A DNA stretch of 64,000 nucleotides from Amniculibacterium aquaticum. GTDB lineage: Bacteria > Bacteroidota > Bacteroidia > Flavobacteriales > Weeksellaceae. The position numbers and the translations under genes are program-made. Under the pieces are notes generated by a model. It saw only the letters and a program-made list of their open reading frames with translations, did not search any database and was not told where the DNA came from. How positions within the stretch are numbered: the first letter of the stretch is position 1; each line of letters begins with the position of its first letter. The stretch spans positions 62,001-126,000 of the forward strand of contig NZ_REFA01000001.1 of assembly GCF_003852705.1 (NCBI RefSeq), in the 5' to 3' direction. Below are positions 28,987-31,782 of this stretch, in pieces.

Positions 28987-30447
28987 TTACAATGAGTAAT
29001 TTGGAGCTTCTTGGGTGATGATGACATCGTGAGGGTGAGATTCTTTCAAACCGCTACCGGTAATCTTCACCATTTTGCTGTCTTTTTGAAGTGCAACAAT
29101 GTCTTTGGTTCCGCAATAACCCATTCCGGCACGGATGCCTCCTGTCAATTGGAAAATAACATCTTCCAATCGGCCTTTGTGTGGCACTCTTCCTTCGATA
29201 CCTTCCGGTACAAATTTTTTCGCTTCGGATTGGAAGTATCTTTCCTTTCCACCTCTCTTCATCGCGGCTAGAGAGCCCATTCCTTGGTAAGATTTGAATT
29301 TTCTACCTTGGAAAATAATCTCCTCGCCCGGAGCTTCGTCAGTGCCCGCCAAAAGAGAACCCAACATAACAGCACCTGCACCAGAAGCCAAAGCTTTTAC
29401 AATATCACCGGAAAGTTTGATCCCTCCATCTCCAATAACGGTTACATTTTTGGTTTGCGCATACTCATAAACATTGTAGATGGCAGAAAGTTGAGGTACC
29501 CCAACACCGGCTACCACACGAGTTGTACAGATGGATCCTGGACCTACCCCTACTTTTAGAACATTGGCACCTGCTTCTATCAAATCTTTTGCAGCTTCTG
29601 CAGTTACGATGTTTCCACCAACGATATCCAGATTTGGAAAAGCTTTTCTGATTTCAGAAATTTTATCCAACACCCCTTTGGAATGTCCGTGTGCCGAATC
29701 GATGGCTACAATGTCCACACCAGCAGCTACCAATGCATTCACACGATCCATGGTATCTACACCTACACCAACTCCGGCTCCAACAATAAGTCTTCCGTTT
29801 TGGTCTTTGTTGGCATTGGGATATTCCAATTGGTTATCGATGTCTTTGATGGTGATTAGTCCGATCAGTTTGTTTTCAGCATCAACGATGGGTAATTTTT
29901 CTACACGATTTTCGAGCAATATTTTTTTCGCCTCATCCAGATTGGTATTTTTTCCTGAAGTTACCAAATTGTCTTTGGTCATCAGGGTTTCTACTTTGGC
30001 GTCCAAGTTTTCTTGATATTTTACATCTCTATTGGTGATAATCCCAATTAATTTATTGTCTGCATCCACCACGGGAAGTCCGGAGATTTTGAACTGTGCC
30101 ATTAGATCTTTGGCTTCGCCCAAGGTATGGTCTTTGGAAAGGGTAACCGGATCGGAAATCATTCCATTTTCGGATCTTTTCACACGGTTAACTTGAGCAG
30201 CTTGCTCTTCTACCGTCATGTTTTTATGAATGAAGCCCAAGCCTCCCACTCTTGCCAATGCAATAGCCATTTCTGCCTCGGTTACGGTGTCCATAGCCGC
30301 AGAAACAATAGGTACATTAAGGGTTATTTTGTCGGTAAGTCTGGATTTTAGGGAAACCTGATTGGGTAAAACTTCTGAATAAGAAGGAACTAAAAGTACA
30401 TCATCGAAAGTGATGGCGCTTTCTACAATTTTGTTATGAATAGACAT
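28987..30447 (-). CDS. guaB: IMP dehydrogenase
   Basis: Oxidises IMP to XMP, the first committed step of GMP synthesis. It has 486 residues: a TIM barrel with a two-CBS Bateman insert (about 95-210: [44 protein letters not shown]). Catalytic-site segments are [18 protein letters not shown] (with the active Cys) and the flap [10 protein letters not shown]. Monocistronic, with a -7 element at 30462-30469. Confidence 0.97.
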
Positions 30448-30461
30448 CTTTACTTTCTTTG

Positions 30462-30469
30462 CAAAATTA
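30462..30469 (-). promoter_or_regulatory. -7 promoter element for guaB
   Basis: TAATTTTG on the minus strand, 15 bp before the guaB ATG, giving a very short leader. Confidence 0.5.
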
Positions 30470-30527
30470 AATCTTTCTGACCAATCGTGAAAGATTTTTT
30501 TATTTTTTAACAGAAATTTAATTTTAA

Positions 30528-30717
30528 GAGCCTGTTTAAATTTTATATCTAGATTTTTTGTATAGATATTTGGATGGATTTTGGGTTTTAAAATTGAAGT
30601 TTTGCAGGCTAAAACAAAAATTTAAAATGCAAAATACGCTAAATTGAATGCAAAAAGGCAGATAAGAAAGATTGGAAATAGTCGGAATATTATTTCGGTA
30701 AAATTTTAAACGGGCTC
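30528..30717. mobile_element. MITE-like element with inverted terminal repeats, 190 bp
   Basis: The left end reads GAGCCTGTTTAAATTTTA and the reverse complement of the right end reads GAGCCCGTTTAAAATTTTA: 18-19 bp terminal repeats with one mismatch and one indel. TAA flanks both ends (30525-30527 and 30718-30720) as a 3-bp target duplication. The inside encodes nothing. A GAGCC end and a TNA duplication are what I know from IS5-family (IS1031-group) insertion sequences, so it may be mobilised by such a transposase encoded elsewhere. It fills most of the 292-bp gap between guaB and the membrane protein gene. Confidence 0.75.
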
Positions 30718-30739
30718 TAAGTTTGAATTTAATTTAAAC

Positions 30740-31447
30740 TTAATTCAGCTGATGCGTTAAAATAAAAGCTTCTACTTTTTTGATCTGAACCAAATAACGA
30801 TTGAGAGAAAGCCATGTGAAAAGGCAGATTGTTGCAAGGACCAAATAAATGAATAAAATTCCAAAAACCTGCCATTCCAAAGTGGAAACATGTAAAAAAG
30901 CATCTACAAAAACTTTGTAATCCGATACAGATTTAAACAAAAAGTAGGCCATGGAAAGGTGAATCATGACATAGTTTTGATACAAAGTGAGTGTGAATTT
31001 AGAATGTTTTTTCGGTAAATTGACTGCTTTCCAATTTCGTATAATTTTGATGATGGGTGCAAAAACCATGATCACGATCAATAATAGAATAAGATATTGA
31101 AAAATTTCTTTTGGAAATAATAACGATAAAACGAACGATGCCAATACGATGATTCCTGCATATTTCACACTTTCAAAAAATACCGATTTCAACATGGTTT
31201 TTTCAAAATTCCTGACCAAATCGCTTCGGTTTTCCAACTCCCAGCCTCCGTTCCAATACGGAGTGAGGTCGTTGCACCAGGAGTCTTTGGTTTTTTGAAA
31301 AGCATCATCAAAACATAAGTTATGACGCGCTTGCAAATCGTGTATTTGGGATATAAAATGATCGTAAACCTCTATCAACATGTCTATGGGAAGTTTTTTT
31401 ACCGAGAGATAGGATAGGATTTCTTGTTGTTGGGCTTCGGTTATCAT
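30740..31447 (-). CDS. multi-pass membrane protein partnered with PadR regulator
   Basis: A 235-residue protein. The first 85 residues are soluble (YDHFISQIHDLQARHNLCFDDAFQKTKDSW), reminiscent of the short helical domain found beside PadR regulators. Four to five membrane helices follow. The start codon overlaps the PadR stop by 4 bp (ATGA), so the two are translationally coupled. Function unknown; PadR-linked membrane proteins are usually controlled by their regulator. The MITE lies immediately downstream. Confidence 0.75.
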   Translation of the reverse strand: MITEAQQQEILSYLSVKKLPIDMLIEVYDHFISQIHDLQARHNLCFDDAFQKTKDSWCNDLTPYWNGGWELENRSDLVRNFEKTMLKSVFFESVKYAGIIVLASFVLSLLFPKEIFQYLILLLIVIMVFAPIIKIIRNWKAVNLPKKHSKFTLTLYQNYVMIHLSMAYFLFKSVSDYKVFVDAFLHVSTLEWQVFGILFIYLVLATICLFTWLSLNRYLVQIKKVEAFILTHQLN

Positions 31448-31767
31448 GGTTTAAAAATATTTTGAAGAGATAAAATATAAGCATTCATTTCATTTTCCAA
31501 AACGGATTGTTGTTTCAGTCCTTTGTCGGTTAATTTATAATACTTGCGGTCTCTCCCGTTGATGGTTTGCACCTCTGTCACGACCAATCCTTGGACTTCT
31601 AATTTGTGAAGTATCGGATACAAAGCGCCTTCGGTGATTTCCAAGTGGCCTTCAGTTTGTTGTTTTGCCAATTGCGTCATTTGGTAGCCGTACATTTTTC
31701 GCTCCACGCTCAGCATTTTCAAAATGATGCTTTGTAGGGTTCCTTTATAATAAGATTTGGCCGACAT
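31444..31767 (-). CDS. PadR family transcriptional regulator
   Basis: A 107-residue winged-helix repressor. SAKSYYKGTLQSIILKMLSVERKMYGYQMTQL and EGALYPILHKLEVQGLV are the PadR DNA-binding motifs; a short C-terminal helix follows. The frame can be extended to a GTG at 31782, but ATG 31767 fits the promoter element at 31793-31800. It is coupled to the membrane protein gene. The palindrome TTGTTAGTAACAA at 31783-31795 is a likely operator. Confidence 0.88.
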   Translation of the reverse strand: MSAKSYYKGTLQSIILKMLSVERKMYGYQMTQLAKQQTEGHLEITEGALYPILHKLEVQGLVVTEVQTINGRDRKYYKLTDKGLKQQSVLENEMNAYILSLQNIFKP

Positions 31768-31782
31768 GAATTTTGATTTCAC

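Follow-up and report, generated by a model that had tools for sequence, protein, structure and literature searches.

Between guaB and a PadR-linked gene, the window (the whole stretch of 64,000 nucleotides that was analysed) holds a short segment with inverted ends, and the question is whether this segment is a MITE and, if so, which transposase could have moved it. The preliminary description had proposed a MITE at this place with a partner from the IS5 family, and had suggested that it might change the expression or termination of the adjoining gene. We compared the segment with its copies in the host genome and in other Bacteroidota, with candidate partner insertion sequences (IS), and with its empty sites in a sister genome.

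The element, its copies and its empty sites

The element spans 190 bp (30528-30717, + strand in canonical orientation). The left terminal inverted repeat, GAGCCTGTTTAAATTTTA, lies at 30528-30545 on the + strand and resembles the 3' end of an IS5-family IS of about 855 bp, whereas the right one, which reads GAGCCCGTTTAAAATTTTA inwards, lies at 30699-30717 on the - strand. The two ends are 18 and 19 bases long and differ by one mismatch and one extra A. A TAA stands immediately before the element (30525-30527) and another immediately after it (30718-30720), which would be the two halves of a 3-bp target duplication of the TNA pattern found over the copies. In the ORF list of the window, no ORF of at least 60 aa overlaps the element. 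The inverted ends, the TAA on either side and the non-coding interior given in the preliminary description were thus confirmed from the sequence and the ORF list, and the element is short, ends in terminal inverted repeats and lacks a transposase ORF, as a MITE does.

A generic repeat finder run on the window returned no inverted pair at 30528-30717, presumably because the mismatch and the extra base interrupt its 9-base seed. This result would suit a chance inverted repeat, a reading with practically no probability left, since it is ruled out by the 22 loci of the host genome and by full-length relatives in other genera.

These loci came from a search of the host genome (2.55 Mb in 74 contigs) for further copies, the check that had been proposed for the element. 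At least 22 dispersed loci were found, merged by hand from at least 27 matches (40 of 68 candidates were scored). Thirteen of the 22 are near full length, six are internally deleted with both ends, and three are truncated. Besides the window copy, ten copies are 86-94% identical to it over nearly the full length. The six internally deleted copies measure 54-104 bp, with both ends kept and the middle gone. Genes around 25 copies (19 from the host genome and six from relatives) were called by a simple ORF rule, under which no ORF of at least 100 aa spans a copy (0 of 25). An ORF reaches up to the element in five host copies (L002, L007, L009, L016 and L025), where truncated genes are possible.

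Five short host copies (L014, L016, L018, L019 and L020; 93-104 bp) consist of about 24-33 left-end and about 70 right-end bases, without the central palindrome. The breakpoint is common to L016 and L019 and different in L014, L018 and L020. Additionally, a 26-bp remnant at about 1488-1513 of L058, also in the host genome, corresponds to the bare two ends, GAGCCTTTTAAAATTTAAACAGACTC, with TAA on both sides.

The flanks of 19 host copies were sorted into 12 with identical TNA, five with TNA of different middle base, one with another pattern and one that has lost its left end. Usable flanks were available for 126 paired elements in total: the 3-base flanks are identical in 89, unlike at the middle base only in 19, at one outer base in nine and at more positions in nine. 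Identical TNA was found in 73 of 112 MITEs (37 TTA and 36 TAA) and in 8 of 14 IS. Empty sites were found in the sister genome G002. At the site of the window copy, its DNA is 78% identical up to the insertion point and holds no element, and its guaB protein is 94% identical. The flanking genes of 12 host copies were also sought there, and for six copies (L004, L005, L009, L016, L018 and L020) they are neighbours. Those of L003 lie on two contigs and those of L019 lie 58 kb apart, so that they were not seen as neighbours, and L002, L006, L008 and L010, undecidable in G002, were left out of the comparison. The element is absent at all six comparable further sites, and one alignment runs through the joined flanks. 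The comparison with a genome lacking the insertion, also called for earlier, therefore yielded an empty window site and six other empty syntenic sites, so that the target duplication of a MITE (TAA/TAA at the window) is accompanied by empty sites.

Flanks with mixed middle bases (TTA|TAA and TAA|TTA) occur in about one copy in seven, among them the host copies L004, L006, L008, L009 and L016, and do not agree with a simple 3-bp duplication. Eighteen of the 19 middle-base mismatches are complementary. Inversion between copies is an unlikely source for L004, L009 and L016, whose flanking genes still adjoin in G002. A 2- or 4-bp duplication at TTAA suits all TTA|TAA cases by construction but only one of eight TAA|TTA cases. 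Hairpin-templated correction of the flanks would agree with the complementary mismatches, yet the even split in genome G119 does not need correction, and the wider flanks examined for it gave no clear signal. In G119, the flanks are nine TTA|TTA, nine TAA|TAA, six TTA|TAA, nine TAA|TTA and five others, so that the combinations are about equally common. In the same genome, at least two flanks were each found with two different partner flanks (L188/L347 and L345/L243), which points to recombination or exchange, or to chimeric assembly.

The partner insertion sequence

Of the 197 genomes searched in the family, 82 carry the exact end GAGCCTGTTTAAAW, against 11 matches in 10 of the 197 for a control, the pattern read backwards. 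We sorted 130 end pairs by length, counted on fetched loci of which many were chosen for holding an end, so that the counts are not frequencies: 12 pairs of up to 104 bp, 95 of 147-234 bp, five of 343-421 bp, two of 649-671 bp, 12 of 846-863 bp and four of 908-978 bp. The class of about 855 bp consists of insertion sequences, with a single ORF of 252-259 aa in the four examined. Three of their transposases matched the NCBIfam model NF033580 (transpos_IS5_3) at 177-187 bits (cut-off 110), and the same three matched Pfam PF13340 (DUF4096) and PF01609 (DDE_Tnp_1) above cut-off. This IS has the same 13-base ends as the MITE and also has TNA flanks. A 3-bp TNA duplication is a defining feature of the IS1031 group of the IS5 family, and an IS5-family partner with TNA flanks, as first supposed, is borne out by the NF033580 matches and by the flanks themselves.

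In related genera, the IS (L110 and L118-L122) resembles the MITE in its 13-base ends, its TNA flanks and its 3' sub-terminal sequence. Unlike the MITE, it encodes the ORF of 252-259 aa, and nothing in it matches the interior of the window MITE. Against the 3' ends of the IS, the left end of this MITE aligned at 71-88% identity over 34-62 bp, and the outer 19 bases are 100% identical in two of them. Because this alignment runs over 34-62 bp, the IS and the MITE share more than the bare repeat. At E <= 0.01, neither the interior nor the right end of the window MITE matched the IS, whereas some relatives match at both ends. Altogether, we are highly confident that the 190-bp element is a MITE carrying the ends of the IS5-family insertion sequence of about 855 bp. 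The preliminary description had named the lack of other copies and of a related IS as grounds for giving up a mobile element; copies, IS, TNA flanks and empty sites were all found.

The partner was then located by its transposase. Among 15 further genomes, the intact IS is in G193, G197, G213 and G217; fragments only are in G179, G104 and G119; only distant relatives are in G026; and the transposase is absent from G011, G012, G014, G020, G025, G060 and G216. The host genome (G000) and sister G001 gave no match to the transposase, with five small host contigs reading as N and multi-copy contigs possibly missing from the assembly, and sister G002 holds only a 29% relative. No intact IS transposase was found in the eight genomes known by G number that contribute to an alignment of 29 MITE copies. 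The expected full IS with the same ends thus exists in related genera, but the host genome, where it might have been sought first, gave none. Since the transposase was not found there, the host copies look like orphans. Two PF01609 hits of the host genome, L037 and L038, which we take to be IS982-like and IS3/IS4-like, showed no GAGCC end pair with up to three mismatches allowed. In G104, L128 is a 174-bp GAGCC-ended element centred in a perfect inverted repeat with 21 bases per arm.

We propose that the DDE-type transposase of the IS would have recognised the MITE ends in trans, and that the MITE would have entered a TWA site, duplicating 3 bp. The IS may then have been lost from the host lineage, leaving orphan copies, and the spread between lineages would have occurred when the IS, the MITE or both were transferred horizontally. 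Against this mechanism stands the lack of a transposase match in the host genome and G001. The 19 of 126 elements with a middle-base mismatch speak against a simple 3-bp duplication, and the right end of the window copy is unmatched by the IS at the same E-value, unlike that of several relatives.

Fourteen host contigs (L068-L081) run about 110-204 bp into a different IS, whose ends read GAACTTGTTTAAA, and stop there; this high-copy IS breaks the host assembly. Mobilisation of the host copies by this resident IS instead of the GAGCC-ended one was considered and is quite improbable. Three of the 14 contig ends were compared with L140, an IS5-type IS of G002, and share 78-82% identity with it; the L140 transposase matched NF033580 at 136.8 bits (cut-off 110). 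The ends of the resident IS differ from the MITE end at two of 13 bases, so that it could in principle act on the MITE, and some MITE ends read GAACC. However, the flanks of the complete G002 copy read AAT/AAT, not TNA, and the single flanks of the host copies, judged by eye, are off the TNA pattern, whereas the MITE flanks follow it.

The hairpin and the spread among Bacteroidota

The + strand RNA of the window MITE folded into one end-to-end hairpin of -50.5 kcal/mol (z = -6.0 against shuffles), and the - strand gave -26.6 kcal/mol (z = -3.2). We aligned 29 hand-chosen full copies, nine of the 13 from the host genome, one from G001, four from G002, four from G011, three from G025, two from G012, one from G014, one from Soonwooa and four from G119, with a mean column identity of 75%. 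RNAalifold on these copies gave 35 pairs, of which 12 are changed on both sides. Pairing in the consensus hairpin reaches 95.6% of 1003 cells; column shuffles gave 87.5% and slid partners 36-58%, a comparison that favours the structure because it was derived from the same sequences. The covariation is 0.244, against 0.112 in shuffles. Further pair types are not raised (32 against 30.8 in shuffles, with 178 of 500 shuffles reaching the observed number).

The + strand is the more stable one in all 29 aligned copies and in 84 of 86 full copies, at least 38 of which come from G119. It holds 25-37 G and 14-22 C, and shuffles alone gave a mean strand difference of 6-13 kcal/mol. For six copies, 0, 11, 34, 0, 57 and 3 of 100 shuffles reached the observed strand difference, so that three of the six are not clearly above composition. 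The stability preference of the + strand is largely base composition.

A fixed regulatory or structural RNA, such as a terminator, a stabiliser or a small RNA, that merely resembles a mobile element would account for the compensatory changes across genera, the high share of paired cells and the more stable + strand. We nevertheless consider such an RNA very improbable. The sites are not conserved, as G002 is empty at the window site and at six others. Of the copies that lie between ORFs (51), those beside tandem genes number 23 in sense and 11 in antisense orientation (p = 0.058), nine are divergent and eight convergent; the window copy belongs to the antisense group. The scan for terminator-like sites found none, and the Rfam scan gave no family at the element, its sole match being SNORD58, beside the element, at 15.5 bits against a gathering threshold of 42. 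The further pair types do not exceed the shuffles, and composition alone yields the strand difference in three of the six copies. Additionally, the covariation need not mean RNA selection, because covariation would also arise in a DNA palindrome of which one arm served as template for repairing the other. At L011:1501-1691, the complement of the right arm stands in place of the left arm of the inner stem, which looks like repair templated by the opposite arm.

Among eight representative copies, the window copy shares 66-68% identity with the other seven, and the G002 copy shares 85-86% with its counterparts in Parapedobacter and Olivibacter, which belong to the Sphingobacteriales; Soonwooa belongs to the Flavobacteriales. 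Copies are also found in records named Dysgonomonas (Bacteroidales), so that the full-length relatives lie in scattered genera of three Bacteroidota orders. Because some of these non-coding copies are closer across orders than within the genus, horizontal transfer is the best explanation for the spread of the MITE. At least 40 copies in G119 are 94-100% identical to the query (40 of 242 candidates were scored), which is a recent burst, and this genome offers a setting to study the fate of long palindromes. With the Olivibacter copy as query, one of 395 genomes in a phylum sample matched, the host genome itself, a result that says little because two candidates per genome were scored; the same query gave no match in plasmid and phage records. 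One viral contig holds one MITE end. The distribution of the family is patchy. It is conceivable, if rather unlikely, that the MITE lineage has outlived its IS and crosses Bacteroidota orders as a unit of its own, with the hairpin kept by selection on DNA or RNA, or by a repair templated by the arms, which would also alter the middle base of the duplication.

Known elements and the guaB-PadR neighbourhood

Correia/NEMIS, ERIC and RUP are, like the window MITE, short dispersed elements that fold into hairpins, but they differ from it in a TA duplication and in their ends.

For Bacteroidota, MITEs with IS5-type ends are described in Porphyromonas gingivalis, namely MITEPgRS/MITE464 and BrickBuilt, together with ISPg4, ISPg1 and ISPg9 of the IS5 family (PMC4596501). 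They resemble the window MITE in host phylum, in being non-coding and in IS5-family ends that start with GAG (PMC4596501). Their ends, with GAGACTGTTGCA as the left end of MITEPgRS and ISPg4, differ from those of the window MITE, GAGCCTGTTTAAA, and BrickBuilt differs further by a 23-nt minisatellite and by duplications of varying length (PMC4596501). The end-to-end hairpin belongs to the window MITE, and the available text of that paper gives none for the P. gingivalis MITEs (PMC4596501). The same source describes ATR of Neisseria meningitidis, which with ISNme1 (IS5 family) is likewise a MITE sharing its ends, GAGACCTTTGCAAAA, with an IS5 element, but lies in another phylum and has other ends (PMC4596501). 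MITECca01 of the Cardinium endosymbiont, with ISCca4, is also an IS-related Bacteroidota MITE, but its IS belongs to IS982 and not to IS5 (PMC9769881). Porphyromonas is named in a review of prokaryotic MITEs from 2024, whose main text contains no word that starts with 'flavobacter' (PMC10969869).

The 13-base end was not found in any paper of the open-access library searched. Within the open-access titles and abstract openings listed for MITEs with Chryseobacterium, with IS5 and Bacteroidetes, with Flavobacterium and with other Bacteroidota genera, the family is undescribed. It is thus a new family, as far as a description was found, of a known and ordinary kind. It provides a searchable IS/MITE pair for bacteria on whose MITEs little literature was found.

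The genes around the window copy lie on the - strand. The guaB gene (IMP dehydrogenase, 28987-30447; PF00478, 533.8 bits) starts 80 bp from the element. On the other side, the stop of a gene for a 235-aa protein (30740-31447), called a PadR-linked membrane protein in the preliminary description and matching no Pfam or NCBIfam model, lies 22 bp from the element, which agrees with the position first given beside this gene. Its upstream partner encodes a PadR-family regulator (31444-31782; PF03551, 73.8 bits). A search with the neighbour protein gave no named orthologue. A putative promoter box upstream of guaB, TAATTTTG (30462-30469, - strand), lies in a stretch conserved in the G002 empty site and presumably fits the Bacteroidota -7 box TAnnTTTG. 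Along the operon strand, 22 bp separate the stop of the 235-aa gene from the start of the MITE, and 58 bp separate the end of the MITE from this likely box. The insertion thus leaves guaB, the 235-aa gene and the likely promoter box intact.

The PadR operon would transcribe the less stable strand of the MITE. A terminator or promoter carried by the MITE was rejected, as scanning the MITE gave no site resembling a terminator and a single one resembling a promoter, where chance alone would give 1.9. The changed expression or termination raised at the outset consequently gains no support, with the genes intact and no regulatory signal found in the MITE. The insertion has little consequence for the gene neighbourhood and is probably almost neutral for guaB and the PadR operon. 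In G002, the gap between guaB and the membrane gene (L310:1221-1485) is occupied by a different, G+C-richer stretch.
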